Below, piece after piece: positions 5,694-42,302 of a stretch of DNA of 45,479 nucleotides. The notes under the pieces are model-generated. The model was given only the letters and a program-made list of their open reading frames with translations. It had not been told where the DNA came from and searched no databases. The stretch spans positions 1 to 45,479 of the IMG/VR virus record IMGVR_UViG_3300025099_000039. One strand, given 5' to 3'. The stretch's first letter is position 1. Each line of letters starts with the position of its first letter. The position numbers and the translations under genes were made by a program. The stretch is from a virus.

Positions 5694-5832
5694 CGAATAG
5701 GTTGGGGTTGAAGAAGAGGGCGTACTGAATTAGGGGCGTTGACTTGCAGATTTCGATTGATCGTTCACACATGGAACGGTTGAAGCAGAGTTCGTGCCAG
5801 AATTTTATAAGATAAAGTATGTTTTGTCTCAT
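5677..5832 (-). CDS. Possible 51-residue leader ORF overlapping the late promoter (doubtful)
   Basis: An ATG at 5832 opens a 51-codon frame that ends inside the start of the 1115-residue gene. An internal in-frame ATG at 5772 lies one base downstream of the start point predicted from the sigma-54 motif, so a 31-residue leaderless peptide is also possible. No ribosome binding site is visible, and the promoter motif lies within the frame. It may be a chance frame. I record it because it competes with the promoter reading of this DNA. Confidence 0.2.
   Translation of the reverse strand: MRQNILYLIKFWHELCFNRSMCERSIEICKSTPLIQYALFFNPNLFDAYRV
5784..5800 (-). promoter_or_regulatory. Sigma-54-type promoter for the terminase/portal block
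   Basis: On the minus strand this reads CTGGCACGAACTCTGCT. The -24 GG (5798-5797) and -12 GC (5786-5785) have the spacing required of sigma-54 promoters, and the flanks match the consensus YTGGCACG-N4-TTGCW except for one T to C. The predicted start is about 5773, some 80 nt before the ATG at 5693. GGCACGAA is shared with the sites at 12358 and 42282. Confidence 0.8.
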
Positions 5833-5893
5833 AGTGTTTTTTGGGTCATTTTTTCAGAGAGGGTTATAGTCCACTCGCGCCGCGACTTCGAGG

Positions 5894-6240: not shown

Positions 6241-6288
6241 TGCGGTGTTACCGCACCCCCAAAGTACCAGAATTAAGAATTGTGTCAA
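6241..6288 (-). promoter_or_regulatory. Early promoter with 5'-terminal hairpin, leftward
   Basis: Minus strand: TTGACA (6288-6283), 16-bp spacer, TACTTT (6266-6261). About six bases later a 6-bp hairpin begins (TGCGGT, loop AAC, ACCGCA; 6255-6241), which places it at the very 5' end of the RNA. ATG at 6233 follows closely with no Shine-Dalgarno sequence. Geometry matches the three rightward early promoters. Confidence 0.75.
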
Positions 6289-6311
6289 CCAATTTATTTT
6301 TTATTTTTATG

Positions 6312-6355
6312 TTGACTTGTTATGGATGGTTGATACTCTGTCCCTGCCTTCGGGC
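6312..6355 (+). promoter_or_regulatory. Early promoter with 5'-terminal hairpin
   Basis: TTGACT (6312-6317), 16-bp spacer, TACTCT (6334-6339). Six bases later comes a GCC-TTCG-GGC stem-loop (6346-6355), then TATT and the ATG at 6360. The stem-loop would sit at the RNA 5' end, and the leader has no ribosome binding site. The segment GCCTTCGGGCTATTATGA recurs exactly at 7757. Confidence 0.8.
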
Positions 6356-6359
6356 TATT

Positions 6360-6479
6360 ATGAGAAAACGTCTTATGATGAAATACGCAGGGCGCAAGTT
6401 TCTGTTTCCGCGCAATCCGCGCCAAACGGACATCATGCGCAGAGCAGTAAAGAAGTTGCAAAAACGCAACAGGTCATAA
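6360..6479 (+). CDS. 39-residue strongly basic early protein
   Basis: First gene rightward of the divergent promoters. The start is chosen because ATG follows the conserved hairpin-TATT leader, exactly as in the 7771 gene. The product is about one-third Arg/Lys (MRKRLMMKYAGRK at the start, KKLQKRNRS at the end) with few acidic residues, so nucleic-acid binding is plausible. No family recognised. A terminator follows directly. Confidence 0.55.
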   Translation: MRKRLMMKYAGRKFLFPRNPRQTDIMRRAVKKLQKRNRS

Positions 6480-6487
6480 CATTGGTG

Positions 6488-6509
6488 GGGGCCTCGGCCC
6501 CTGCCTTTT
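6488..6509 (+). terminator. Probable terminator after the first early gene
   Basis: GGGGC, loop CTCG, GCCCC (6488-6501), followed by TGCCTTTTC. A short strong GC stem with a moderate T-run. Confidence 0.65.
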
Positions 6510-6535
6510 CTACTGAGACGAAACTACAAAATATA

Positions 6536-6630
6536 ACTAACTAATTGTTCCTTTCCAGTCACCTCTGCCGAGTCCCTTCGGGTATTAGTTAGTACAGCCC
6601 GAGGGAGCTTCGCTCCAACGTGCGGGCTGT
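6536..6630 (+). ncRNA. Candidate structured RNA element
   Basis: This non-coding stretch holds nested inverted repeats. ACTAACTAAT (6536-6545) pairs perfectly with ATTAGTTAGT (6584-6593) around a small hairpin containing CCCTTCGGG. Directly after comes ACAGCCCG (6594-6601) paired with CGGGCTGT (6623-6630), enclosing GGAGC-TTC-GCTCC (6604-6616). It lies between the terminator at 6488 and the promoter at 6688 with no obvious promoter of its own. It is not a tRNA. It could be a small RNA, a processing product or a DNA cruciform site. Confidence 0.45.
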
Positions 6631-6687
6631 CCAGAGAAACGCAACCCCTAAATGCATTTTACATGAAGTTTTTTCTTTCATAAAGTG

Positions 6688-6731
6688 TTGACATATTTGT
6701 TGTTTATGGCAGACTGTCTTTGCCGCATGGC
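6688..6731 (+). promoter_or_regulatory. Early promoter with 5'-terminal hairpin
   Basis: TTGACA (6688-6693), 16-bp spacer, a weak -10 (CAGACT, 6710-6715), then after six bases GCC-GCAT-GGC (6722-6731). The hairpin falls at the same offset as in the other early promoters, which supports the site despite the poor -10. The hairpin would hide the ATG at 6727, so translation should start at 6739. Confidence 0.6.
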
Positions 6732-6738
6732 ACTAAAC

Positions 6739-6954
6739 ATGAATAAAGAAACTACAGAACAAATTGAGAGATTGTCCGATTACTTTGTAACGGAGATGAT
6801 CGGGATCATCCAGAAAGCAATTGATAAAAAAGTTGATGAACTGGATGCACAATTCGACACCGCAGATCGGACTGCTGAACGACGCGACGAGATCAGAAAC
6901 GTAGTCAGCGACATGGTAAACCACGGGGACATCACAGTAACAATTGAAGCATAA
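6739..6954 (+). CDS. Small helical early protein
   Basis: 71 residues from ATG 6739; an in-frame ATG at 6727 would add four residues but lies inside the leader hairpin. The protein is almost wholly helical and charged, with an amphipathic segment (IGIIQKAIDKKVDELDAQF) and an acidic-basic C-terminal half. No family recognised. It heads a three-gene operon (6739-7422) closed by a strong terminator. Confidence 0.65.
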   Translation: MNKETTEQIERLSDYFVTEMIGIIQKAIDKKVDELDAQFDTADRTAERRDEIRNVVSDMVNHGDITVTIEA

Positions 6955-6955
6955 C

Positions 6956-7195
6956 ATGAACAAATTAGTCGGAGAAGAGTACAAAACAAAGAGCGGGGTC
7001 GAGGTCATTGTCGCGCAAGCGGCAGACCTCGGCAGAACTTCGGACACAGTAATTGTGTACGCCAGCAAAGAAGGCAGACGTTTAGCGGCTGCTCTGGCAG
7101 CGGGTGAATATGCTGATATAGCCATCAACGAGATGGAGGTAAGCGAATACAATGAAGTTCTTGAACTGCTGGGCGCTGTATACTGGGAAGAATGA
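6956..7195 (+). CDS. Small early protein, unknown
   Basis: 79 residues from ATG 6956, one base after the previous stop (TAACATG). The N-terminus looks beta-rich (YKTKSGVEVIVAQAADLG, TVIVYASKEG), followed by an Ala-rich helix and an acidic tail ending GAVYWEE. The upstream ATG at 6944 lies inside the previous gene and is less likely. Its stop overlaps the next start (ATGA), so the three genes are coupled. Function unknown. Confidence 0.65.
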   Translation: MNKLVGEEYKTKSGVEVIVAQAADLGRTSDTVIVYASKEGRRLAAALAAGEYADIAINEMEVSEYNEVLELLGAVYWEE

Positions 7196-7422
7196 ACTAC
7201 TATATTAATAATCTAAAGAGCAAAGTTGAAGTTGCTGACGGCATCAAACGCTTGATTGAAGACATCGCCCCAACTAAATGGGAGATGGACGAAATCCAGA
7301 AAGCATGGGACGAAGTACACGAAAAGCACGAAGTCGAGATCAGCGAATACAGAACGCGAATCCGATACCTTGAAGGTAAACTCGACAAGGCAGACGTTCC
7401 CTATACAGTACCGAAAAAATAA
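7192..7422 (+). CDS. Small coiled-coil early protein
   Basis: 76 residues, predicted helical throughout: LKSKVEVADGIKRLIEDIA, then a Trp-containing charged helix and a coil (YRTRIRYLEGKLDKA), ending in a short PYTVPKK tail. Last gene of the operon, with a four-base overlap upstream and the terminator at 7430 seven bases downstream. No family recognised. Confidence 0.65.
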   Translation: MNYYINNLKSKVEVADGIKRLIEDIAPTKWEMDEIQKAWDEVHEKHEVEISEYRTRIRYLEGKLDKADVPYTVPKK

Positions 7423-7429
7423 ACGACAA

Positions 7430-7449
7430 CCCCCGCAAGGGGGTTTTTT
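7430..7449 (+). terminator. Rho-independent terminator
   Basis: CCCCC, loop GCAA, GGGGG (7430-7443), followed by six T. It ends the 6739-7422 operon just before the AT-rich repeat region. Confidence 0.92.
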
Positions 7450-7498
7450 CTTGGTCTAGTCTTCTTGTGTATCTAGTTAATGTAAATAAACGGGGCAA

Positions 7499-7662
7499 GG
7501 TTGATTATTAAATTTATTTATAAACATTAATCAACCACCCCCACACATTGACGCATTGACGAATATGTAAAAAAAGATACATATTTATATGTATATATAT
7601 AGACACAAGAGGGTATCCCCCTATGGTTGATTAATGTTGATAGATAAATTTAATAGTCAACA
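7499..7662. repeat. Long inverted repeat around an AT-rich core; candidate replication origin
   Basis: Arms at 7499-7536 and 7625-7662 are 38 bases each and match as reverse complements at 34 positions. Each arm is itself nearly palindromic (GGTTGATTA at one end, TAATCAACC at the other). The 88-base core holds two adjoining CATTGACG copies (about 7546-7561) and a palindrome ATACATAT-TT-ATATGTAT (7577-7594) in very AT-rich DNA. The stretch from 7450 to 7722 has no credible gene. Such paired repeats around easily melted DNA are common in origins. An operator array is the main alternative. Confidence 0.55.
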
Positions 7663-7722
7663 CAACCATGAGCAAATCAATATGTACAAAAAATAATTTT
7701 TTCAATAAATCTCATATAAAGG

Positions 7723-7766
7723 TTGACACCCCTCCCCCCTCTGCTAGTCTTGTCTCGCCTTCGGGC
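7723..7766 (+). promoter_or_regulatory. Early promoter with 5'-terminal hairpin
   Basis: TTGACA (7723-7728), 16-bp pyrimidine-rich spacer, TAGTCT (7745-7750), then after six bases GCC-TTCG-GGC (7757-7766), TATT and ATG at 7771. It matches the 6312 promoter in spacing, hairpin and leader. Confidence 0.82.
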
Positions 7767-7770
7767 TATT

Positions 7771-8361
7771 ATGAAAACCAAAATCATAACAAACGAAAAC
7801 GGCAAGGCCCAACTCGCCTTGGTTAACAACAACGAAACACTCGCTAACCTTGACTTGACTCTCCTTGAATCAACCAAGGGTCAAGACGGCCCCTTCAAAT
7901 ACTGGGCGCATGAAACCGGCTCCGATTCAACCAACGACTTGAACGACATCCGCGACTGGATTACCGCCCTCAACGAAGCTGGAGTCCTAGACAACGATGC
8001 AGACTCTTGGATAAAAGACGCTTGTCTCTACCGTCTCAATAACGGCAAATACAAAACCGTCCAAAAGAAATCAATCGACGGCAAAAGAACAGACTCCTAC
8101 ACCGACGAGGAAAAACTCTCCAACATTGCGCAAGCACTAGACGGGGATGCATTCAAGGAGCGCACAAAGTCAGACGGAAAAGCAGCACTCACCAAGAAGC
8201 TAGAAGCCTCCGAGACTCGCGCCCAACGGATGCAAGAAATCTTCGCGGAACGTCGCGCCCTTGAGGCTAAACACCGCAAGGAAAAATCTGCTGAAAAGGC
8301 AGCGACAATCCAAGCCAAGATTGATGCACTCGATGTCGAGGCAGACGCACTATTCGCCTAA
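7771..8361 (+). CDS. Early protein with acidic N-terminal and coiled C-terminal halves
   Basis: 196 residues from the ATG placed by the hairpin leader. The N-terminal part (to about residue 100) is mixed and carries Trp and Tyr in segments such as GPFKYWAHETG and RDWITALNEAG. From about 105 on it is a charged helical region ending in a coiled coil (KHRKEKSAEKAATIQAKI). It is a single-gene unit between a strong promoter and a strong terminator, which suggests abundant early product. The region resembles phage single-strand-binding or scaffold-like chaperone proteins only in general character; I do not recognise a family. Confidence 0.7.
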   Translation: MKTKIITNENGKAQLALVNNNETLANLDLTLLESTKGQDGPFKYWAHETGSDSTNDLNDIRDWITALNEAGVLDNDADSWIKDACLYRLNNGKYKTVQKKSIDGKRTDSYTDEEKLSNIAQALDGDAFKERTKSDGKAALTKKLEASETRAQRMQEIFAERRALEAKHRKEKSAEKAATIQAKIDALDVEADALFA

Positions 8362-8368
8362 CTTCAAT

Positions 8369-8392
8369 GGGGGGAGAAATCCCCCCTTTTTT
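8369..8392 (+). terminator. Rho-independent terminator
   Basis: GGGGGGA, loop GAAA, TCCCCCC (8369-8386), then six T. It isolates the 7771 gene. The next gene begins only six bases later, so downstream expression may depend on readthrough, as no promoter is visible. Confidence 0.93.
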
Positions 8393-8397
8393 CTCAC

Positions 8398-8676
8398 ATG
8401 AAATTCACAATCTGCCAAGACTGCCACACGCTTAACGCGACAGGCGATGCCTCATTTCTAGACTACCACTACCAAGGAGACGAGGCCCAAACAAGATACA
8501 CCGAAATAAATAACGGTCTCGATAAACTAGCCAAGCACGGCTACTTAATGACCGGAGACAAGACAGACGACTTCTCAAAACAACCATGCGAATCCTGCTT
8601 AACTAATCTCGCAGGTGAACGCTACTCTCTCACAACTTACACAACTTTAACAAATACTCTACATGAAAATGTCTGA
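8398..8676 (+). CDS. Small zinc-ribbon-like protein
   Basis: 92 residues with two Cys pairs, CQDC near residue 6 and CESC near residue 64. Their spacing would suit one zinc site formed by two knuckles. The stretch between contains HYQGDEAQTRY and a helix. First gene of a long operon (8398-12336) of small overlapping genes. Function unknown; zinc binding is inferred from cysteine spacing. Confidence 0.65.
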   Translation: MKFTICQDCHTLNATGDASFLDYHYQGDEAQTRYTEINNGLDKLAKHGYLMTGDKTDDFSKQPCESCLTNLAGERYSLTTYTTLTNTLHENV

Positions 8677-9040
8677 ATCCATAACTAAAATGGAAGCACT
8701 ATCCCAAAAGATAAGTAAACAAAGCGAAGAACGCGAGTCTCTTATGAGAGAATTAAGTCGCGCTCTCTCACTACAAGCCGCACTAGGCAAAGACATTTGG
8801 GGCGATGGTAAAATATCAACCAACATTCGCAGATGCCAAGGCGGCTTCTCTAACAAGATAGCAAGTAGACAACCTGACTTCAGCTTCAGCAATAAATTCA
8901 AGATCAAGATCAGTTCGCCAGTAAAGACACTTTACTCTGGCATTCTATCCGATCTCTACAACGACAACAAAGAACTGTACGACTGGGTAATCAATCACCC
9001 CTTAAATAAAGACTACAAAAACTACAAAAACAACAAATGA
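8663..9040 (+). CDS. Unknown early protein with N-terminal coiled coil
   Basis: 125 residues. An N-terminal coiled coil (to about residue 45) is followed by a basic region and a Lys/Asn/Tyr-rich tail. ATG 8663 overlaps the previous gene by 14 nt; ATG 8669, two codons on, is equally possible. No family recognised. Confidence 0.6.
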   Translation: MKMSESITKMEALSQKISKQSEERESLMRELSRALSLQAALGKDIWGDGKISTNIRRCQGGFSNKIASRQPDFSFSNKFKIKISSPVKTLYSGILSDLYNDNKELYDWVINHPLNKDYKNYKNNK

Positions 9041-9381
9041 GAAAAATAACACAAGACGCAGCACGCGCATTCAAACAAGGCAAGAACTTCAGTCGTGACA
9101 ACACTCGCGTCGAAGTCAAAAAAGACCTGCGATTCCCTGACGACAATGTCACGCAACTCTACTTGCATGGGCATTGCATCGCAGAACAGACAGTAAACTC
9201 GCTCCACATTTCACTTTGTGGCTGGCCCACAATGACAACTCGCGAGAGACTGAACGGATTACTCGACACGTTAAACATCCAGAAACACTTATACCAAGAT
9301 AAACATGAGCAATACATCTTTGACCGTAGCACTCAAACATCCGAACCGTTCCCGTCTAGCGGCTATCAGCGCGTTGCATGA
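9037..9381 (+). CDS. Conserved-type small phage protein with HG-x-IA and GWPTMTTRERLNG motifs
   Basis: 114 residues. The layout is an N-terminal AARAFKQGKNFSRDNTRV, a strand LYLHGHCIAE, then SLCGWPTMTTRERLNGL and a C-terminal tail. From memory this order (basic helix, LHG-x-IA strand, GW-x-T-x-TTRERLNGL) occurs in small uncharacterised proteins of many podoviruses, usually in early regions. The biochemical role is not known. It overlaps its upstream neighbour by four bases, and its last 77 bases overlap the next gene. Confidence 0.7.
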   Translation: MRKITQDAARAFKQGKNFSRDNTRVEVKKDLRFPDDNVTQLYLHGHCIAEQTVNSLHISLCGWPTMTTRERLNGLLDTLNIQKHLYQDKHEQYIFDRSTQTSEPFPSSGYQRVA

Positions 9382-9619
9382 ATGCAGCTTGTATGGATAT
9401 GGGCATGAGAATCTACGAAAGCATCCTGATTGGCATGGATACCACAAAGAACATCTTGTCCATTGCGACCTACCAGACATGGAAATACTATTCCCGCCAG
9501 ACTACTCGATACAAGGTAACGAACATTACCTAGACAGACAGTCAGCAAAGTGGGTACACAACCTGTTTCATAAATCACCAGACTACTTAAAGTTCAATGA
9601 AAGCAATAACAATAGTTAA
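9305..9619 (+). CDS. Unknown early protein, His/Tyr-rich
   Basis: 104 residues, not recognised. It has many His and Tyr residues (HECSLYGYGHENL, HPDWHGYHKEH) and a central acidic stretch DLPDMEILFPPDY. It begins 77 bases inside the previous gene in another frame and overlaps the next gene by 23 bases. The large overlap makes its start less certain, but no later ATG suits the spacing better. Confidence 0.5.
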   Translation: MSNTSLTVALKHPNRSRLAAISALHECSLYGYGHENLRKHPDWHGYHKEHLVHCDLPDMEILFPPDYSIQGNEHYLDRQSAKWVHNLFHKSPDYLKFNESNNNS

Positions 9620-9779
9620 TGGAAACGTCGAACTGGTAGACATACCAGACAGGGCAAGAAGCTGGACTAAACTAGACAGTCCAAGTCTTACTGAAAGTCC
9701 TAATCAATCCTTACGACAAGACAACTGGAGCGCAGCATTAACACGTTGCGTCATCAAGGCAAAGAAACATAAACGATGA
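9597..9779 (+). CDS. Unknown 60-residue early protein
   Basis: 60 residues. It begins MKAITIVNGNVELVDIP, a beta hairpin-like start, and ends in a basic helix (RCVIKAKKHKR). The stop overlaps the next start (ATGA). No family recognised. Confidence 0.55.
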   Translation: MKAITIVNGNVELVDIPDRARSWTKLDSPSLTESPNQSLRQDNWSAALTRCVIKAKKHKR

Positions 9780-9967
9780 GCTACAAAAAAAGAATTGTTG
9801 ATCTTTGCGAATTGTGTGAAGGCAAAGGCTACTTAAACGTAGCAGAATCGTGTCAAAAATGTGCTGATTGTGTTGGAACAGGTATGCAACATAAAGAATG
9901 TGAGAGTTGTGGACAAAAGATACTCAAGTTTAACGAGGCTTGTCACGATGAACATCTTTGTAACTGA
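9776..9967 (+). CDS. DnaJ-type cysteine-rich zinc finger protein
   Basis: 63 residues with CELCEGKGYL (CxxCxGKG), CQKCADCVGTG and CESC, which match the repeats of the DnaJ zinc-binding domain. There is no J domain, so it is not a full co-chaperone. A stand-alone domain of this kind could bind zinc and hold a partner protein or nucleic acid. Its last 20 bases overlap the next gene. Zinc binding is well supported by the motifs; the role is unknown. Confidence 0.65.
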   Translation: MSYKKRIVDLCELCEGKGYLNVAESCQKCADCVGTGMQHKECESCGQKILKFNEACHDEHLCN

Positions 9968-10481
9968 TGATAACCCGATTGTTGCAGCGCGTAATCTCTG
10001 CGACAAACATATAAACAAGATGATCGTTGAGTCAGCACAAATGCTGGCCAACGGTTTTCCTTTATCCAGACTCGCAGCAGACGACTGCCCTCGTAATGCA
10101 GTAGGTCGTGCTAGAGTACATAGCTATCGCTATCACCCATGCACACAATGGACGTTCAAGACTCAAGACAACATGAGCTGGCTGATAAGTCACGCCCTTG
10201 AGATGGGCGAAGAACGTCGATACCGCTGGGGTAAAGACCATTACACTCTCGACTTCATTGCTTGGTGCTACGAGAACCTCAAAGATTCTTACGCACCTAT
10301 CGGGTCAAGAACCGAGTTCGCTGTAGCCATAGCGAAGGACATGAACTGTCGCAAGCAACCAAACTTTGACGACCTACCAATAGTAGAAAAATACAGACTG
10401 TACATACAACTAGACAAACCATTCGCACAATGGACACGAAGAGAGAAACCAACATGGCACACACTTATATCTGGCAAGTAA
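9948..10481 (+). CDS. Conserved-type phage protein (DDNP..AARxLCDKHINKM family), unknown function
   Basis: 177 residues from ATG 9948. The N-terminal motif NIFVTDDNPIVAARNLCDKH followed by KMIVESAQMLANG, then HPCTQWTF, NMSWLISHALEMGEERRYRWGKDH, recalls a widespread uncharacterised family in phages and environmental bacteria. Conserved Cys, His, Trp and Tyr residues suggest an enzyme or nucleic-acid-binding site, but I know of no proven activity. The frame is open further upstream, but those codons lie inside the zinc-finger gene. Confidence 0.65.
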   Translation: MNIFVTDDNPIVAARNLCDKHINKMIVESAQMLANGFPLSRLAADDCPRNAVGRARVHSYRYHPCTQWTFKTQDNMSWLISHALEMGEERRYRWGKDHYTLDFIAWCYENLKDSYAPIGSRTEFAVAIAKDMNCRKQPNFDDLPIVEKYRLYIQLDKPFAQWTRREKPTWHTLISGK

Positions 10482-10690
10482 ATCATCTTGAACCAAGTGA
10501 CGTTGATATGCTACAAAATGAAATTGGACTCATTGTAGTAACCGATGAAGACCAAACAATCGACGAAATCTATCAGACGGGTACAGCAGAATGTTGTACA
10601 AGTGATAACAAATTTTTGTTTTATCAATTCGATAAAGCATTAACACAAAACCAAGTAAAACTAATCGAACAATGTATGAGTTCAATGTAA
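10454..10690 (+). CDS. Unknown small acidic protein
   Basis: 78 residues from ATG 10454; an in-frame ATG at 10430 lies deeper inside the previous gene. The composition is acidic (DEDQTIDEIYQTG) with paired cysteines (ECCTSD). Its end overlaps the next gene by 19 bases. No family recognised. Confidence 0.55.
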   Translation: MAHTYIWQVNHLEPSDVDMLQNEIGLIVVTDEDQTIDEIYQTGTAECCTSDNKFLFYQFDKALTQNQVKLIEQCMSSM

Positions 10691-11451
10691 AGAGTCGTCC
10701 CGTATTCAACATACGAGGACAAGAGATCGAAGGACATCGCGAGAACTTTCGCGAGGATACGGGTGAGCATCTTGCCCTTGTTTCAGATAAGTACAAGATA
10801 GTCCACCATAAAGAAGTAATAGACAGAGTTGAATCCTGTCTGAAACTCGGTGAGTTTCAGAGGAAAATCTATTGTCCCAACAATGGAGCAAGACTCTATG
10901 CAGTCTATGACTTCAAAGAACAACGTGCTGAAGTAGCAAAGGGAGACATCATCGGGATGCGCGTCACGTTACGCAATTCATACGATGGTTCTTCTGGTAT
11001 ACCAATAGATGCAGGAGCATTACGTCTTGTCTGCACTAACGGCATGACATCACCATGCATGAACACCAAGCAGTCAGGTAGACATTCAATGAACCTTGAC
11101 TTGGACTACATCAACGATTCAATCAACTCAGCCAAGCGTGAGTTTGACGCATCAGTTGAAGGCTACAGAGTCTTGCATGGTTTCAAGATCACCCAACAAA
11201 AGGGCGAATCCCTCATCGAAAAACTGGTAGAAACCAAGAAGATCGGTGAGAGGCGAGGCAAGGACATCTTGGATATATGGCGCAATCCCACATACTCACA
11301 AGATAAAGACCGCAACATATACAATCTATACAATGCGGTAACACAAAACCTAACTCCAGAGATGGACAAAAGTTTTGAGCTAGTGGCAAGAACCAATCGC
11401 AACGTACTCAAATTCTTACAGCATGAATCAAATGAACTTCACACAGCATGA
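10672..11451 (+). CDS. DUF932-like protein
   Basis: 259 residues. The order of segments fits the DUF932 (plasmid/phage) family: ALVSDKYKIVHHKEVIDRVE near residues 37-56, LYAVYDF, a central GDIIGMRVTLRNSYDGSSG near 91-109, ALRLVCTNGM near residue 116 and a helical C-terminal half. Members are common in phages and plasmids; the biochemical role is not established. It lies two genes before the sigma-54 activator, with overlapping ends on both sides. Confidence 0.75.
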   Translation: MYEFNVKSRPVFNIRGQEIEGHRENFREDTGEHLALVSDKYKIVHHKEVIDRVESCLKLGEFQRKIYCPNNGARLYAVYDFKEQRAEVAKGDIIGMRVTLRNSYDGSSGIPIDAGALRLVCTNGMTSPCMNTKQSGRHSMNLDLDYINDSINSAKREFDASVEGYRVLHGFKITQQKGESLIEKLVETKKIGERRGKDILDIWRNPTYSQDKDRNIYNLYNAVTQNLTPEMDKSFELVARTNRNVLKFLQHESNELHTA

Positions 11452-11626
11452 TGCATGGGGTCAGCGGGAGAACCAAGACCCTCCGCAACACAACGAACCC
11501 GAGCTAGATACAGTTGAAGTACATCTCAAGTTCAAGTGGAATCCTAAAGTACACGAACACCCACAAGACTGGAAGTGGGAAGACATACTTGATGCCGAAG
11601 GCGTAGAAGTTAAATGGAAGAACTAA
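11423..11626 (+). CDS. Unknown 67-residue protein directly before the sigma-54 activator
   Basis: 67 residues, rich in Trp, His, Glu and Pro (HDAWGQRENQDPPQHNEPE; HEHPQDWKWEDILDAEGVE). It overlaps DUF932 upstream by 29 bases and the activator gene downstream by 13 bases, so it is translated with the activator. That linkage makes it a candidate partner or inhibitor of the ATPase, but no sequence feature proves this. Confidence 0.5.
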   Translation: MNQMNFTQHDAWGQRENQDPPQHNEPELDTVEVHLKFKWNPKVHEHPQDWKWEDILDAEGVEVKWKN

Positions 11627-12336
11627 TCACAGAAGACAAGTTCATGCTAGAGCAAATCTACCATGCACACATTCTGTCCAGCCACGATTCCCCCGTCCTA
11701 GTGATGGGGGAGTCTGGCACAGGTAAGGAGACTATCGCTCAAATCTTACATGGAGACAGACAAGCAGCATCGAACGCCAAAATACAAAATAACTTCGTTC
11801 CTGTAAACGTAACTACACTCCAAGAAGACTTGTTTGAATCGCTTCTTTACGGACACCTCAAAGGCTCATTCACGGGAGCGACCAGAGACACAACTGGTTT
11901 CGTTCAGCGAGCGCACAAAGGCACGCTATTCCTAGATGAGATCGGAGAACTTCCCTTACATCTACAGCCCAAGTTACTACGCTTCATCCAACACAAGAAG
12001 TATAGTCGCGTAGGTGAAGCCGAGGAACACAACGCAACTTGTCGCTTCGTGTTCTCGACCAACAAGGACTTACGCAAAGAAGTCGAGGCAGGAAATTTCA
12101 GACTCGATCTCTACCACCGCATATCAACCTTCATCATCAAGACATCACCACTCCGAGATAGAACAGACGACATAACTCTCTACCTCAAGAAACACAATGT
12201 CCGAGAGACAGAAGTCGAAGACCCCGAAGGATTGATGCTGCAAATCCTAGATCAAACTAAACTCACCGGCAACTATAGAGAACTACAATCTATACTTGCA
12301 CGTTACAAGACATTGGGTAAATTAATCATCTATTAA
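11614..12336 (+). CDS. Stand-alone sigma-54 activator AAA+ ATPase
   Basis: 240 residues that align almost residue for residue with the PspF/NtrC catalytic domain. Walker A GESGTGKE is at 32-39 and the nucleotide-sensing Asn at 65. The sigma-54-contacting L1 loop is GSFTGA at 84-89 (family consensus GAFTGA). Walker B LFLDEIGELP has D108 and E109, sensor I is STNKDL with N150, arginine fingers are R163 and R169 in GNFRLDLYHR, and sensor II is GNYREL near the end. All catalytic residues are present. The chain stops right after the AAA+ domain: no receiver, GAF or PAS domain precedes it and no helix-turn-helix follows. Bacterial activators lacking a DNA-binding domain, such as Helicobacter FlgR, are known to work from solution. 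The expected role is to use ATP to open complexes of host RpoN-RNA polymerase at the three phage -24/-12 sites, the nearest only 22 bases past this gene's stop. Confidence 0.92.
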   Translation: MEELITEDKFMLEQIYHAHILSSHDSPVLVMGESGTGKETIAQILHGDRQAASNAKIQNNFVPVNVTTLQEDLFESLLYGHLKGSFTGATRDTTGFVQRAHKGTLFLDEIGELPLHLQPKLLRFIQHKKYSRVGEAEEHNATCRFVFSTNKDLRKEVEAGNFRLDLYHRISTFIIKTSPLRDRTDDITLYLKKHNVRETEVEDPEGLMLQILDQTKLTGNYRELQSILARYKTLGKLIIY

Positions 12337-12357
12337 TATCACCTACCCCCAAAAAAG

Positions 12358-12374
12358 TTGGCACGAAGGTTGCT
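12358..12374 (+). promoter_or_regulatory. Sigma-54-type promoter for the replication operon
   Basis: TTGGCACGAAGGTTGCT matches the sigma-54 consensus YTGGCACG-N4-TTGCW at every defined position; GG is at 12360-12361 and GC at 12372-12373. The predicted start near 12385 is about 18 bases before ATG 12403. It lies in the 66-base gap after the activator gene, the first clear gap since 8398. Confidence 0.88.
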
Positions 12375-12402
12375 TATATATTAACTGTCATATTTTTTGA
12401 AA

Positions 12403-16581: not shown

Positions 16582-16828
16582 CGACGTTCGTACCAAAGAC
16601 AATGCACAAGCGTTGGAGCGGTTACGAATCAAGACAACTGAGATGCAAGCCGAGGCTTTAGCAGACGGTTATCTATCGGGAATCTCTGATGCAATCCTAA
16701 TGCTACAAGATTACATCAAACAAGATTCAATCAAGGACAAGCTCAAACAAGAAGCACTCAAGGCGCGTGAGACACAAACCAAGTCTAAAGTACAGCGGTC
16801 TAACGGTAATTCTCGAAAGTCCAAGTAG
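16556..16828 (+). CDS. Small helical protein with GTG start
   Basis: 90 residues from GTG 16556, 26 bases inside the preceding gene. It is helical and mixed in charge (RLRIKTTEMQAEALADGYL, ISDAILMLQDYIK), with a Lys/Arg/Ser-rich tail. It overlaps the polymerase start by 62 bases. No recognised family. Confidence 0.55.
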   Translation: MKELTTIIDDVRTKDNAQALERLRIKTTEMQAEALADGYLSGISDAILMLQDYIKQDSIKDKLKQEALKARETQTKSKVQRSNGNSRKSK

Positions 16829-19133
16829 ATTCGACAAGGGTAGTCTAATCTCAGGCTACGCTGGTCATCTATTCCAAAACGCCCTTGGTATTCCGAGACA
16901 ATCTTGCGACATCAGATTGCTCAATACCTTGGGCGAAGGCTTTCTCCCCGACACAAAAGTAATTTTGTTGTTGGGCGAGAAGGCTCTTAAAACTTTCAAG
17001 AACTCAAAACTCGGTGGTCAACGTGGCTGTCCTTGGATGGTACATGGACGCACTTACATTGCTACGTTCGCTCCGCAAAATGCCATTGATCGCAAGGCAT
17101 ACTTCAATCCGCTCGCACACGAAACCGAGTACGATTACGACGAAACTGAGAGACACGGCAAAACCAAACGATCTAACTGGCGATACTGGATGCAACGGGA
17201 TGTATCAAAAGCTGCCGGTTATCTCAAGACTCCACCTAATCCCATCGAAGGTGAGAGTGACATCTATCCCAAAGCATCCGAAGTTATAGATTTACTAACA
17301 AACACTAAAGGCAAGGATATGTTCTTTGACATCGAGACAAATCCTAGCCTTGAGATGACTTGTTTCGGATTCTCGTTTGGCGGCAAAGGTTACTGCGTAC
17401 CAATGCTGCGAATAAACTACTATCATTACGACGAGACTCCTCAGATTTTACGCGCACTCGCTGTTGCACTCAGGGACAACACAGTAGTCATACACAACGC
17501 ACTCTTTGACCTATTCGTTATTGCTTATCGTTATGGTATTCCTGCACCTCGCAAAGTCTACGATACAATGCTGGCGCACCATCGACTGTTCCCCGAAATA
17601 GAGAAGTCTCTCGGACATTGCATATCACTTTACACAGATCAACCTTATCACAAGAACGAAGGTTGCTACAATCCACAGAACGCAGAACAGTTTGATCAAC
17701 TCTACCATTACAACGTCAAGGACGTACTCACGATGGCGTTGATTAAACCATCAATTGACGAACTCGCAGTTACGATGGGCGCAACTAAATCCATCGAACA
17801 AGCTAACTCAATGGTAGTGCCGTACCTTACTGCGATGTGTCAGGGACTCCGCATCAATACAGCAGAGAAGAAAAAGATTCTGATGCGCAACGAACGACAC
17901 AAGAATCAACTTCGTAGAATGCTGAGTCTCCTTGTCGGTCACGACCTAAATCCAAACAGTCCGAAGCAAGTGTCTGTCTATTTGTATGACCGCATGAAGC
18001 TCAAGAAACCGGCGAAGGATTTAACAAACGAGAAGACTCTGCTTCAACATCGACTCAAGTATGATCTTCCAGCGATTTCAATAATTCTTAAGTACCGATC
18101 AATCGCCAAAGAATCCGGCCAACTCAAGTACAATCCTTACGATGGTCTACACAACATACCAATGGTTGATCGCATCACGACCTCGTACAACTTGGCTGGT
18201 ACATCTACATTCAGATTGGCAAGTCGCAAGCTACTCGGTCGCTGGGGTACGAACATCCAAAACATACCAAAGAAGCTGCGACATCTGTTCATTGCTGATG
18301 AAGGTAAGGTTCTTGTACAAGCTGACCAAGCAGGAGCAGAGGCAATGATCGTTGGCTACCTATGTACACAAGGCAACTTCCGCACACTATTTCTTGAAGG
18401 CATTAAGTCCCATGTGTTTGTTGCCATGCGCTTGTTTCCTGATGTCTGGTCTGCTGAACTTGGTAGAAGCATCGACGAATTCTGCGAAGCTCCCATCCAT
18501 GAACTCAAGGACATCAAAGGTTGGGATGAACTGAATAGTGTAATCAAAGATAGCGACAATTGGACTGCCGATAAACGCTACTACTTCATGGCCAAGATGG
18601 TTTGTCACGCATCGAACTACGGCATGAAGGCTCCGACCTTTCGTACAAATATCTTGCAAAAGTCTCAAGGTGCAATCGCACTTGAATCGAAGGAGGCTAA
18701 ACGATTTCTCAGTACCTATCACAAGTTGTTCCCTGAGATAAACCAATGGCACAACGAGACTGTCGAACGACTCAAGGAAACACGAACACTCAAGAATCTG
18801 TTTGGGTATCCGAGATACTTCACCGGCATCATTGATGAATCAATGTACAAGGAAGCGTATGCATTCGTGCCTCAATCGACTGTCGGATGCATTACGAACC
18901 TCGCATTTGTCGAACTACAGAACCGACAAGATTTGCAAGAGTTAGGAGTTGACGTACTCCAGAACAACCATGATAGTGTGCTGCTTCAATGCGCACCTGA
19001 GCATTCAGAATTTGTTGCCCAAGAGGCAATGAAGCATCTGAATCGTGAAATGATTTCTCCCCGTGGCGAGCGATTCTCCATGAGATCAGAAGCAATGATC
19101 GGGGATAACTGGAAAGAAATGATAGATGTCTAA
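16767..19133 (+). CDS. Family A DNA polymerase with 3'-5' exonuclease and N-terminal glycosylase-like domain
   Basis: 788 residues from GTG 16767. Residues about 1-115 (VILESPSRFDKG, IRLLNTLGEG, VILLLGEKALKTF, then YIATFAPQNAI) resemble a family 4 uracil-DNA-glycosylase fold. The exonuclease motifs are DIET near 188, HNALFDLF near 244 and YNVKDVL near 316. Polymerase motif A is VQADQAGAEAM near 520, motif B is KMVCHASNYGM near 609, and motif C is NNHDSVLL near 735. The catalytic Asp residues are present, but three sites differ from E. coli/T7 enzymes: motif A lacks SQIE, motif B lacks the upstream Arg and has His where T7 has Tyr526, and motif C has HDS instead of HDE. It is the replicative polymerase; no primase gene is recognised. 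Confidence 0.93.
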   Translation: MRHKPSLKYSGLTVILESPSRFDKGSLISGYAGHLFQNALGIPRQSCDIRLLNTLGEGFLPDTKVILLLGEKALKTFKNSKLGGQRGCPWMVHGRTYIATFAPQNAIDRKAYFNPLAHETEYDYDETERHGKTKRSNWRYWMQRDVSKAAGYLKTPPNPIEGESDIYPKASEVIDLLTNTKGKDMFFDIETNPSLEMTCFGFSFGGKGYCVPMLRINYYHYDETPQILRALAVALRDNTVVIHNALFDLFVIAYRYGIPAPRKVYDTMLAHHRLFPEIEKSLGHCISLYTDQPYHKNEGCYNPQNAEQFDQLYHYNVKDVLTMALIKPSIDELAVTMGATKSIEQANSMVVPYLTAMCQGLRINTAEKKKILMRNERHKNQLRRMLSLLVGHDLNPNSPKQVSVYLYDRMKLKKPAKDLTNEKTLLQHRLKYDLPAISIILKYRSIAKESGQLKYNPYDGLHNIPMVDRITTSYNLAGTSTFRLASRKLLGRWGTNIQNIPKKLRHLFIADEGKVLVQADQAGAEAMIVGYLCTQGNFRTLFLEGIKSHVFVAMRLFPDVWSAELGRSIDEFCEAPIHELKDIKGWDELNSVIKDSDNWTADKRYYFMAKMVCHASNYGMKAPTFRTNILQKSQGAIALESKEAKRFLSTYHKLFPEINQWHNETVERLKETRTLKNLFGYPRYFTGIIDESMYKEAYAFVPQSTVGCITNLAFVELQNRQDLQELGVDVLQNNHDSVLLQCAPEHSEFVAQEAMKHLNREMISPRGERFSMRSEAMIGDNWKEMIDV

Positions 19134-19311
19134 ACCAATAATAAGCTACAACATAGGTGATACTAATATAAGTGTCGCAATCGACAACTTCTTCGATGGA
19201 GATGAAAACCAACCTATACTATTCATCACGGTAAACGGGACGCTACATCCTGCTTTAACCTTTGAGCAGTATTCAATAATCGCAAAACTGATAGAAACAC
19301 TTGATGACTAA
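19126..19311 (+). CDS. Unknown 61-residue protein between polymerase and helicase-like gene
   Basis: 61 residues, beta-rich N-terminus (PIISYNIGDTNISVAIDNF), a strand pair with VNGTLHPALTF and a short C-terminal helix ending LIETLDD. The start overlaps the polymerase stop by eight bases and the stop overlaps the next start. It is a candidate accessory factor by position only. Confidence 0.6.
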   Translation: MSKPIISYNIGDTNISVAIDNFFDGDENQPILFITVNGTLHPALTFEQYSIIAKLIETLDD

Positions 19312-20542
19312 TCTTGAGAAGTGGCGGCACTATCTCAAAGATTTGGAATCGCCCGATCTATTTATTGATTGGAGTTTCTACAGTTTGATAAGTGCTGCGT
19401 TACAGAGGCGAGTCTGGTTGTATCCAGATTCAATGTCCATATACCCGAACATCTTTACGTTGCTTGTCGGGCCTCCTGCTGCTGGTAAGTCTCGCGTGAT
19501 CTCGCAAGTTACCGACATCATAAAAAGCGAGAAGCTGATGGAATTCGACGTTGAGAAAAACGAGATGGTTCCGATGTATCCTTACGGTGCAGACACAACT
19601 ACACAAGAATCGTTGCTTCGTTATATGCGTGATGATTGTATGCGGACGTTTACTATACCCGATACTCGTCTTGGTGGAAGTGCGCTCAAGAACAAGTCAC
19701 ATCATTCCATCTGCTTTATGATCGAGGAACTTGGTGTACTCTTTCGCAAGAACTCCGAGGACATGGTGAATATGCTGAACCAGTTTTATGATTCACGCAG
19801 TTACCATTACAAGAGTAAACACCAAGGCTCAGACGACATCACGAACATCTGCGTAACAATGCTGGGAGGAACAACACCTTCATTCATTCGCGAAGCATTT
19901 AGTGATAGGATTATTTCGCAGGGATTTACTTCTCGCGTCATCATTGTATTCGGTCATGCACCTAGATTCTTTCGTCAGTTTCCCGGTCTATCAGACGAGC
20001 AGATACGTTGCCGCAAAGACATTATCAGTTGGCTGTATGGACTGCGTGGAATCTCAGGTGAATGTAAGTTGGATGCTGAAGCGTCTGCGTGGCACAAGCA
20101 TCTTTATGAGTCAGGAGAACTGGATAGAAAGCGTGTGAACAAAGACCCTCGACTTGATAATTATTATGGCAGGAAGAATGTTCATCTATTGAAGACTGCC
20201 ATGCTAATGCATTTCGCTGATGGCACGACGAAGGAGATTTCATTGTCGCAGATCAAACGTGCATTCAAGTTGTTGACTGTAACGGAACACAAGATGCATG
20301 AAGCGTTCAATACTGTTGGACGTAATCCGATTGGTGAAATCACCAAACACATTTTAAGATATATTATTGACTCGGACTCAGGCGTTCGCTACAAAAAGTT
20401 ATGGCTGAAATTTGTATCTGAGGTTACGAAACAGGAACTAGACCAAGTATTAGAGTTCCTTGTAACTACGGAGCAAGTTGAGAATACCGGTGGTTGGTTT
20501 AGACCCTTGGTTGACGATGTTTACGATAGCCTTAACTTCTAA
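19304..20542 (+). CDS. P-loop ATPase, DUF3987-like, probable replicative helicase
   Basis: 412 residues from ATG 19304. Near residue 50 is YPNIFTLLVGPPAAGKSRVI (Walker A GPPAAGKS), preceded by a helical region with a WSFYSLISAALQRRVWLYPD signature. SICFMIEELGVLF near residue 148 fits Walker B. NICVTMLGGTTPSFI near 187 resembles the sensor region, and TSRVIIVFG follows. These features match DUF3987-type P-loop proteins, found in phages and mobile elements next to polymerases or primases. A C-terminal helical winged-helix-like region follows. Helicase or helicase-primase activity is inferred from family and position. Confidence 0.75.
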   Translation: MTNLEKWRHYLKDLESPDLFIDWSFYSLISAALQRRVWLYPDSMSIYPNIFTLLVGPPAAGKSRVISQVTDIIKSEKLMEFDVEKNEMVPMYPYGADTTTQESLLRYMRDDCMRTFTIPDTRLGGSALKNKSHHSICFMIEELGVLFRKNSEDMVNMLNQFYDSRSYHYKSKHQGSDDITNICVTMLGGTTPSFIREAFSDRIISQGFTSRVIIVFGHAPRFFRQFPGLSDEQIRCRKDIISWLYGLRGISGECKLDAEASAWHKHLYESGELDRKRVNKDPRLDNYYGRKNVHLLKTAMLMHFADGTTKEISLSQIKRAFKLLTVTEHKMHEAFNTVGRNPIGEITKHILRYIIDSDSGVRYKKLWLKFVSEVTKQELDQVLEFLVTTEQVENTGGWFRPLVDDVYDSLNF

Positions 20543-37141: not shown

Positions 37142-40100
37142 TTATCCTTTGAGTGCTTTAACTTCTGCACTTAATTCTTGCACCGCTTTCAACAGCGGAA
37201 TCACCAGTTGACTGTATTCAACAGATAACTTTCCTTTCGGGTCTTCGCCAACCAAGGTGCAGTCGTAGCCAACTTCATCCATCGCAGCTTTTACGTCCTG
37301 TGCGATAAGGCCAACACAAGTTGTGTCATCATCGTCTGGTCGTTCGTCAGCCGGTACAGTCACCGTCTTGTAAACTGCTTCTTGTGCTTCGACTGCTGGT
37401 TTAACCAAGCGGCGTTCTGTAACTTCCTCAACAGCAGGTTCGGCTGGTGATTCTAATTTGCGTTCGGTGCGCTCCTCCTGCGCCTCTTGTACGACGTACT
37501 CCTCCATCACCGGACATTTGTGAGTCATTTGTTCGGTAACAGCCGCTTTGGCTTCTACTGCTGGTTCTATTTCATTGCCGTCTTCATCAAGAACCGCGTC
37601 CTTGGCTTCAACAGCCGGTGAAATAATGTTCAAGCATGGAGTACCGTCCTCGTTGACTACTGGGTGTTCGACGTACAGCGGCGTGCGCTCAATGCGAGTG
37701 ACTGTTTCGGTGGTGACTTTTCGGATGTAGTTGTCACCTTCACCCTTAACCATCTCCACCTTCTCAACTTCCTCGGTGACTTCCTTCTCGTCGTGCTTGT
37801 GGCGTTCACCTTTAACTTCCTCAACAGCGGGAATGACTACATTTTCGTAAACCGCTTCAACAGCCTCGCGTGCTTCGACAACGACAACATCCTCGTAAAC
37901 AGCTTCAGCAGCTTCAACCGCTGGCGTGACAAGTTCTTGATGTTCTTCTTCACGGAAACGACTCTCAAGTATCTCGGCTGGATAGTCGGCTGGGTTTACT
38001 CGCTTGAACGTAACTGGTTGTAGCTTCTCAATGAACGATAAGCCGACGTTGTTATCGGTGATGTCACGCTTGATGCGGCGATCTGAATATTGGGCGTATG
38101 CAACTTGGCCTTTAATTGCCGACATACTGGTGTTACCGAGTGCTACTGAGTTAGAACCAATTCCATCTGTACCATAACCAATAGCTATTTCGTTGGTAAT
38201 TCCAGTTCCGTTGCCAGACGATCTTGTATCAACACCAATATAAACGGATGTAGCAAGATCAGTTGCGGCAGTTCCGTCAGCGGCGTACCGTGCTGCACTA
38301 AAACCAATAGCAACATTGTTGTCAGCATCATCGTCGTCCAGTTCCGTTAAAGCTGCATAACCTATAGCTACGTTATTGCTTTCACCACCGTTAGCAGCAT
38401 CTAGTGCGTATGTGCCTACGGCTACGTTGTTAATACCGGAAGTCAACAAAGCTGCGGCTGAATTACCAAATGCCACATTTCGTGCGCCGGTTGCCGCTTT
38501 AAGTGCGTTGTATCCTACCGCAGTACAGTTATCGCCTGCGTCAGCAGCACCACTCGCAAGCGCACCTCCTGCTTCATGGCCGATTAGTACGTTGCCTGTT
38601 CCATCTGTAATTGCAACACCGGCATTTACACCAATTGCCAAGTTGATTGCTGACGCATCGTTTTGTGCGGTCAGCGCAGTAGAACCGATAGCAATGCAAT
38701 AATCCGCACCGCTCGTTTCAGCAGCTAATGCACCTTTACCAACAGCAATGTTGTGGTCGGAAGTACCATCCATTGCCACCGCCGCTTGATAACCGATGGC
38801 GACGTTGTAATCGCCGGTTGTCATTGCAGCGCCAGCTTGATAGCCGACTAGTACGTTGCCGGGGCCGTCTGTGAGTGCTGTTCCAGCTTGATGTCCGACG
38901 GCAACATTTGAATGACCAGTAGTCGCTGCATCCAGCGCGTAACTACCAATCGCTATGTTGTTGTTGCCGGTGGCGTTGTCAGAATTATCGCCAGCATCAT
39001 CTGCGGCTTGTAGTGCGCCGTAACCAATCGCAATACAATCGTCTGTGCTGGTTGCGTATAAGCCAGCACTTCGGCCAAGGTATATGTTACGACTTCCGGT
39101 TGTGCTGTACCCAGCAGAAGCACCCAATGCAACATTGTTATCACCACCAGTACCCGCGCTACTACCCGTTCCTACAAGCGAAAAAAGTGTGTTTGCTCCA
39201 ACCGCCGTGTTACCTGATCCTTCCGAACAAGCACCCAACGCATTAAACCCAACCGCAGTTAGATAAGGCGCATTCGTCGCTGCATCTGCTGCAAGACTAC
39301 CTACTGCAACTGCGTTCGATCCTTCAAATACGTTTAGTGCTTCGTTGCCAACTGCTACGTTATCATCACCCGAAACAACTGCCGACAACGACCCAAAACC
39401 GACCGCTGTGTTTTTTGCACCGTCTTGACAAGCATCAGCAGCAGCAGAACCGACTGCTGTGTTTTTATCACCGTCGTTGTGGTTAACTGCTGTAAGCGCA
39501 CCATTGCCTACCGCTGTATTATTTGTACTCCCAGCTAGACTACTGTCTAGCGCACCAGTTCCTATTGCCGTACATGATGTGTCACCACCTAAACCGTGAC
39601 CGATGTCGAGTGAACCAAGTGTGAGCGTGCCAGACGAAATGCTGACTGCGCCGGTGCTGGCTACCCGCATCCGCTCTAACGGCGAAGTATACATAGGCGC
39701 ATTGCCGCCGGTTTGGGGGCGCGTGTAAAAAACCAAATCTGTTGCCGCGGACGCTTGCGTTTGATCTGCTGCCGCGACTGCGGTTATTGCTGCTTCCGCC
39801 GCTGCTACACTTTGGCCAGTGTAATCACTAGCTTTGAAAGCATACGCACCTAGAATAGTCCCGCTCGCGTTTATAACATTCGTCGCGTGATGCGTGTTAT
39901 TCGCAATTTGTATAACGCCTTTGGTCACGCCAGCCGTTGCGCCAACTACTAAATTACCGCTGATGTTAGATGCGCCTAAAGTGTGAGTTTCACCGGTGCT
40001 GAATATGGTGAGCGCCTCCGTGGTGTTGTTTGTAAAAAACTGCACCTTGGAGTTCTCAAAATTCTGAATGCGAAGGTCGCTGCCGTTATAGCCAATTCGC

Positions 40101-40384
40101 GCCCCGTCTGTTGCGGTCGCTCCGGTGGCGGCCGTTGTTAACTTCAAATAGCCTTCACCATCTGGCCCGTGAACTTGCAACCTGTTAACCGGCGCAGCGA
40201 CTCCGATACCCAGTCGCAACGGATCACCAGCAGAACCACCTTCTACTATGTAAATACCATCAGCACCGCCATCGGACGGTTGCCATTGCATGATCTCGCC
40301 AGAACCATCTGACTTGATAATAGGTTCGTTCTCAAAAGAAACTCCTGATGTGGTGATTACACCCTGCTGTACAATCCGTGCCAT
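37142..40384 (-). CDS. Tail fibre with S74 intramolecular chaperone
   Basis: 1080 residues. The N-terminus (to about 280) is beta-rich and may join the virion. Residues about 280-745 are over twenty YadA-head-like turns of the form NTAVGxxAL or NVAIGxxAL, a beta-roll seen in trimeric fibres. YSDRRIKRDI near residue 766 opens the S74 chaperone, with its usual Ser and Lys dyad; self-cleavage should fall next to this Ser. The C-terminus has GLIAQDV and a final coil. A Glu/Val/Ala-rich insertion of about 195 residues (about 800-995; repeated PAVEAxEAVY) splits the chaperone. It is probably the receptor-binding fibre. Confidence 0.88.
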   Translation of the reverse strand: MARIVQQGVITTSGVSFENEPIIKSDGSGEIMQWQPSDGGADGIYIVEGGSAGDPLRLGIGVAAPVNRLQVHGPDGEGYLKLTTAATGATATDGARIGYNGSDLRIQNFENSKVQFFTNNTTEALTIFSTGETHTLGASNISGNLVVGATAGVTKGVIQIANNTHHATNVINASGTILGAYAFKASDYTGQSVAAAEAAITAVAAADQTQASAATDLVFYTRPQTGGNAPMYTSPLERMRVASTGAVSISSGTLTLGSLDIGHGLGGDTSCTAIGTGALDSSLAGSTNNTAVGNGALTAVNHNDGDKNTAVGSAAADACQDGAKNTAVGFGSLSAVVSGDDNVAVGNEALNVFEGSNAVAVGSLAADAATNAPYLTAVGFNALGACSEGSGNTAVGANTLFSLVGTGSSAGTGGDNNVALGASAGYSTTGSRNIYLGRSAGLYATSTDDCIAIGYGALQAADDAGDNSDNATGNNNIAIGSYALDAATTGHSNVAVGHQAGTALTDGPGNVLVGYQAGAAMTTGDYNVAIGYQAAVAMDGTSDHNIAVGKGALAAETSGADYCIAIGSTALTAQNDASAINLAIGVNAGVAITDGTGNVLIGHEAGGALASGAADAGDNCTAVGYNALKAATGARNVAFGNSAAALLTSGINNVAVGTYALDAANGGESNNVAIGYAALTELDDDDADNNVAIGFSAARYAADGTAATDLATSVYIGVDTRSSGNGTGITNEIAIGYGTDGIGSNSVALGNTSMSAIKGQVAYAQYSDRRIKRDITDNNVGLSFIEKLQPVTFKRVNPADYPAEILESRFREEEHQELVTPAVEAAEAVYEDVVVVEAREAVEAVYENVVIPAVEEVKGERHKHDEKEVTEEVEKVEMVKGEGDNYIRKVTTETVTRIERTPLYVEHPVVNEDGTPCLNIISPAVEAKDAVLDEDGNEIEPAVEAKAAVTEQMTHKCPVMEEYVVQEAQEERTERKLESPAEPAVEEVTERRLVKPAVEAQEAVYKTVTVPADERPDDDDTTCVGLIAQDVKAAMDEVGYDCTLVGEDPKGKLSVEYSQLVIPLLKAVQELSAEVKALKG

Positions 40385-42269: not shown

Positions 42270-42281
42270 CGAATGTATTCT

Positions 42282-42298
42282 AGCAAACTTCGTGCCAC
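42282..42298 (-). promoter_or_regulatory. Sigma-54-type promoter for the capsid gene
   Basis: Minus strand GTGGCACGAAGTTTGCT. GG is at 42296-42295 and GC at 42284-42283, with consensus spacing; only the first base differs from YTGGCACG-N4-TTGCW. The predicted start near 42271 is about 76 bases before ATG 42195. It lies in the 107-base gap between scaffold and capsid genes, the only such gap in this part of the late region. Confidence 0.87.
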
Positions 42299-42302
42299 TA
42301 TT

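Follow-up and report, generated by a model that had tools for sequence, protein, structure and literature searches.

A predicted phage-encoded sigma-54 activator and its matching promoters in uncultured marine and soil viruses

The activator gene and its neighbouring promoter site

The window analysed here is a 45,479-base contig of a virus in IMG/VR (record IMGVR_UViG_3300025099_000039), in which a gene for a sigma-54 activator, or bacterial enhancer-binding protein (bEBP), closes the leftmost rightward gene block and is followed by a predicted sigma-54 (-24/-12) promoter, P1, and then by the replication genes; two further such sites, P2 and P3, stand before leftward blocks (Table 1). The protein matches the Pfam family Sigma54_activat (PF00158) with E=4e-54, and phmmer retrieves the AAA+ domains of FleQ, NtrC1 and PspF with E<=1e-35. 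Its nucleotide-binding motifs are GESGTGKE (Walker A) and LFLDEIGE (Walker B), its L1 loop is the GAFTGA-type GSFTGA, and sensor I (FSTN), the arginine fingers R163 and R169 (FRLDLYHR) and sensor II (GNYREL) are all in place. The AlphaFold model has a predicted local distance difference test (pLDDT) score of 84, and its 50 best Foldseek matches, with template modelling (TM) scores of 0.74-0.81, are all sigma-54 activators (the AAA+ folds of FleQ, NtrC1, ZraR and PspF). The first-pass annotation had read a complete AAA+ domain of the NtrC/PspF class here and proposed a structural comparison with PspF; the motifs bear out this reading, and the PspF AAA+ fold is matched at a TM score of about 0.75-0.78. 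Judged from its sequence, the 240-amino-acid (aa) product is a sigma-54 activator of AAA+ clade 6 with intact catalytic motifs, and ATPase activity is predicted for it.

The activator consists of little besides this domain. An N-terminal regulatory domain (receiver, GAF or PAS) is absent, viral members carrying short extensions before the AAA+ core, and so is the C-terminal helix-turn-helix (HTH), the protein ending about 22 residues past sensor II, as it does in the relatives. What remains is well kept: G-TGKE, DE, R163, R169 and GNYRE are invariant across 16 diverse relatives, and the L1 loop reads G[AS][FY]TGA in all aligned marine relatives. The ratio of non-synonymous to synonymous substitution rates of the viral activators (dN/dS of 0.03-0.18) indicates that they are under purifying selection. 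In a phylogenetic tree, 28 viral activators form one clade (support 99/97) separate from 34 bacterial ones, a clade that leaves out two long-branch viral members, L098 and L201.

P1, P2 and P3 all have GG at -24 and GC at -12 at the fixed spacing of the consensus TGGCAC-N5-TTGC (mismatches in Table 1 are counted over the 13-base consensus) and are classed as predicted sigma-54 promoters, their spacer bases varying among relatives. P1 is the only match without mismatches to TTGGCACGN4TTGCW in the window; it begins at +22 after the bEBP stop, with 21 nt between, in agreement with the perfect -24/-12 site described earlier as lying 22 bases past the stop and before the replication genes, while the start sites that had been named near 42271 and 5773 correspond to P2 and P3. 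A motif model built from the relatives gives P1 23 bits. Random windows of the same composition hold three sites of at least 13 bits in 3% of cases and one site of at least 20 bits in 2%, and matches to the looser consensus TGG-N10-GC (71 in the window, 62 expected) are uninformative. The window by itself is therefore suggestive, its sigma-54 sites being only modestly improbable (P about 0.03), and because such statistics are too weak we turned to a comparison of relatives.

Recurrence of the gene-promoter pair in relatives

Relatives were gathered by their polymerase, not by the activator. The PolA-type polymerase of the window has best GenBank phage matches of only about 22-26% identity and is remote from all deposited phages, but it is related to that of 77 uncultured IMG/VR loci (56-100% identity). 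Nine relatives with 96-100% identity are near copies and add little independent weight. Among the marine loci whose contig spans the region upstream of the polymerase and in which the activator gene was found, a sigma-54 site lies 1-44 nt past the bEBP stop in 44 of 44, at activator identities of 40-100%. A textbook site falls within 62 nt of the stop for 16 of 18 representative bEBP open reading frames (ORFs) as against 10 of 447 other ORFs, and over 737 kb the textbook pattern occurs 70 times, compared with 5 for the reversed (mirror) control. Most soil relatives likewise have the bEBP and an adjoining site, and both out-of-sample soil contigs that were fetched by a distant polymerase and span the upstream region carry the bEBP, which a site follows at a distance of 29 or 255 nt.

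The other two sites also recur. Motif scans place a P2 orthologue 87-240 nt upstream of the orthologue of the 40801 gene in all 17 contigs having that gene, including soil ones in which its identity is just 27-44%. In the marine groups, P3 orthologues mark the region where early and late genes diverge; they are present in G001, G002, G004, G005, G006, G007 and G009, with candidate P3 sites in G012, G013 and G016. Conserved in this way across relatives, the sites are far beyond chance, and the earlier proposal of a phage-encoded activator with matching phage promoters gains from it: the predicted coupling is conserved.

GenBank 'phage' records with bEBP matches show less than 43% identity, many are annotated with bacterial genes such as NR(I) or AtoC, and they look like host sequence, so we set them aside. 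The gut phage DP SC_2_H4_2017 (MT121960.1, our L259) has at 22580-23188 an unannotated, AAA+-only bEBP-like gene with GAFTGA; it is not counted as support because its Walker A motif reads GTDKE and the motif model finds no sigma-54 site in this phage.

Short sequences next to the promoters are also held in common. Directly upstream of -24, P2 and P3 of the window agree in register (5801-5822 and 42299-42320, minus strand) at 16 of 24 positions, a level that none of 1000 shuffles reached; in a different subgroup (G010, G011 and G016) it is P1 and P2 that have a common TTTAGAAGATAG-like sequence there. These could possibly be UP elements or sites of another factor. About 45 nt upstream of P3 (about 5838-5862, minus strand), a CTCTGAAAAAATGACC element is conserved across diverged groups, occurring at the corresponding position in G006, G007, G009 and G013.

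A proposed timing switch and its alternatives

Sigma-54 promoters are the textbook case of strictly signal-gated bacterial transcription. Our analysis makes it very probable that a phage-encoded, AAA+-only bEBP opens the host RNA polymerase holoenzyme containing sigma-54 (E-sigma54) at P1-P3, switching on the replication and late genes. The rightward block would be transcribed early, with the activator as its last product, while host E-sigma54 (RpoN) would wait on the three promoters as a silent closed complex. As it has no sensory domain, the activator would become active once enough is present to form a ring; the hexamer would then meet E-sigma54 at P1, and subsequently at P2 and P3, and open the promoters by ATP hydrolysis. 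Opening of P1 would start the replication block, and P2 and P3 the two leftward late structural blocks. Since P1 lies directly behind the activator gene, the early-to-middle switch would depend on the activator. No RpoN turned up when five viral records were searched with PF04552, nor was one present among the window proteins scanned against Pfam, so that host RpoN would have to be used. That host signals would be bypassed, as the first-pass annotation held, fits the missing N-terminal sensory domain; the idea is refined by the absence of the HTH as well, with which the protein should act from solution and not from a far-upstream enhancer.

Could the phage bEBP instead serve mainly to turn on the sigma-54 regulon of the host, such as its nitrogen assimilation genes, and so supply the infection, the phage sites being secondary? 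Some host effect is to be expected, as an unregulated AAA+ activator lacking an HTH is promiscuous over host sigma-54 promoters (PMC3844500). As the main role we find this improbable, because it leaves unexplained why the phages have sites at three orthologous positions that are conserved, above all right after the activator gene. A different possibility is that the phage sites are true sigma-54 promoters driven by host activators, and that the phage protein, by joining their rings, modulates or blocks host bEBPs and so ties infection to host nutrients. AAA+ bEBPs are able to form mixed rings, and a protein without DNA-binding and sensory domains would suit such a part; but diverse marine relatives retain the Walker motifs, GAFTGA and the two arginine fingers, as an active motor would, the activator gene and promoter are tightly linked, and no common distal enhancer-like site is apparent, although distal repeats were not searched for systematically. 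We regard this explanation as very unlikely. It would be more surprising still if the TTGGCAY-N5/6-TGCT sites served an unknown phage factor and resembled sigma-54 promoters by coincidence: other factors may bind the short upstream sequences that promoters have in common in some subgroups, but it is precisely the -24 and -12 elements that are conserved, the spacer being variable, and without exception these phages carry a sigma-54 activator.

Several observations nevertheless weigh against opening of P1-P3 by the phage activator. P2 and P3 of the window match the consensus less well, scoring 13-14 bits against 23 for P1. No sigma-54 site adjoins the bEBP gene in the distant carriers L186, L191 and L192, and a strong site comes no closer to it than 0.6-2.2 kb in L168, L189 and L201. 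A host RpoN is seen solely via one Deltaproteobacteria metagenome-assembled genome (MAG), RA.bin139, which encodes RpoN and includes a phage-like 49.9-kb contig (L216-L218, JAKLES010000002.1) of the same extended family; this contig is a distant relative, mis-binning is possible, and the L1 loop of its activator reads GSFTGS, not GAFTGA. It was the one hit of a polymerase search of genome assemblies for hosts, with none further in 155 genomes of its class. Finally, by analogy with other HTH-less activators, the phage protein can be expected to switch on sigma-54 genes of the host as well, and without an HTH a preference for phage over host promoters is unexplained; it might possibly come from template number after replication, from strong -24/-12 matches or from the common upstream sequences.

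An early phage product that redirects transcription to later phage genes is familiar from the RNA polymerases of T7 and N4, T4 gp55/gp45, lambda Q, P2 Ogr and Mu C. Those switches rely on a new polymerase, a sigma factor, an antiterminator or a sigma-70 recruiter, whereas the one proposed here would be an ATP-driven remodeller of the host sigma-54 polymerase. A mechanistic precedent is the isolated AAA+ domain of DctD (DctD250), which, acting from solution and without an enhancer, turns on almost every sigma-54 promoter known in Salmonella (PMC3844500). Constitutive, enhancer-free action by an AAA+ domain alone is what we predict for the phage protein too, but DctD250 is a laboratory truncation, whereas the phage would encode its natural counterpart as a self-standing protein. 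Among natural bEBPs, an HTH is not strictly defining, being absent from FlgR and CtcC (group 5) and from FleT, which is named as the sole known bEBP without both regulatory and DNA-binding domains (PMC7175178). FleT thus resembles the phage activator, while FlgR and CtcC still have the response-regulator domain that it lacks; all three are chromosomal bacterial genes for cell functions, whereas here the gene is viral and so, by prediction, are the target promoters. PspF (group 4) likewise has no N-terminal regulatory domain, but it has an HTH, enhancer sites and a PspA brake, none of which was found for the phage activator (distal sites not having been searched for systematically). The genome of the dwarf myovirus phi1422 was annotated with a 'sigma-54 regulator' (PMC3391216), a likeness to the present phages; the passages of that paper that deal with it describe a co-opted cellular regulator and report neither phage sigma-54 promoters nor a role in timing.

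In the open-access full-text papers searched, no phage is reported to drive sigma-54 promoters of its own with its own activator, and an earlier description elsewhere is possible. We think it likely that a tailed-phage family ranging from marine to soil habitats uses a self-standing AAA+ ATPase as its main timing switch, forcing host E-sigma54 without enhancers or signals, and that in viral transcription control this switch forms a class of its own, apart from phage polymerases, sigma factors and antiterminators. The activator and its matching promoters occur in a widespread group of uncultured bacterial viruses from sea and soil, which probably time infection through the host sigma-54 polymerase. 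If so, this would be a new route of viral takeover, one needing an alternative sigma factor and ATP hydrolysis, and it would tie these phages, in their range of hosts, to bacteria with RpoN. On a practical level, mechanistic studies would gain natural AAA+ activators that need no enhancer, together with a regulon readable from the genome and open to direct testing, with three promoters per marine genome.

Gene layout and translation signals

Between 6245 and 20824 the genes of the window point rightward; elsewhere they point leftward.

Table 1. Features of the window, with strand and the evidence for each.
Feature	Position	Strand	Evidence
Sigma-54 activator (bEBP), AAA+ domain only, ATG start	11614..12336	+	PF00158
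P1 TTGGCACGAAGGTTGCT, predicted +1 at 12385	12358..12374	+	0 mismatches
P2 GTGGCACGAAGTTTGCT, predicted +1 at 42271	42282..42298	-	1 mismatch
P3 CTGGCACGAACTCTGCT, predicted +1 at 5773, in early/late divergent region	5784..5800	-	2 mismatches
Small-gene block 5' of bEBP gene, presumed early	6245..11626	+	ORF layout, synteny
Replication/recombination block 3' of P1	12397..20824	+	PHROGs matches
Exonuclease gene	13529	+	PHROGs match
Sak4-like annealase gene	14816	+	PHROGs match
PolA-type DNA polymerase, single 788-aa ORF	16767-19133	+	PHROGs match
Primase gene	19301-20542	+	PHROGs match
Block predicted to be served by P2	42195->20890	-	ORF layout
464-aa conserved protein, directly 3' of P2	40801..42195	-	Kept down to 27% identity
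Tail spike protein with Peptidase_S74 chaperone domain, P2 block	37142..40384	-	phrog_4636 1e-65; PF13884 8e-9
Block predicted to be served by P3	5693->1422	-	ORF layout
1115-aa protein directly 3' of P3	2346..5693	-	ORF; no solid family match

By its position, the 40801 product is a candidate for a major structural protein. Proof that it is the capsid protein was sought without success: its AlphaFold model is unusable (pLDDT 40), it has no PHROG match, and the sole match in a PDB profile search is a weak, local one to a lectin, though the tail spike gene belongs to the same block. A phage RNA polymerase was sought in the 2200-aa protein and discarded, there being no PDB or Pfam match, and a sigma-70 scan found fewer promoter-like sites than in shuffles, so that no early promoter is assigned.

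Shine-Dalgarno (SD)-like motifs precede 2 of 44 annotated gene starts in the window, and over its 150-aa ATG ORFs the SD rate is 14%, compared with 10% in shuffles. In most of these phages SD motifs are at or near chance, and the host may be SD-poor, initiating translation without them.

One relative, G004, is 65,640 bases long: about 42 kb of it contain a single complete set of genes, and about 23 kb show no similarity to window genes; it is either a chimeric contig or a larger genome. In soil relatives and the MAG contig (L199:16483-19552, L193, L198, L219 and L217), the polymerase, a single ORF in the window, is split into an N-terminal exonuclease and a C-terminal polymerase ORF with intervening sequence between them.
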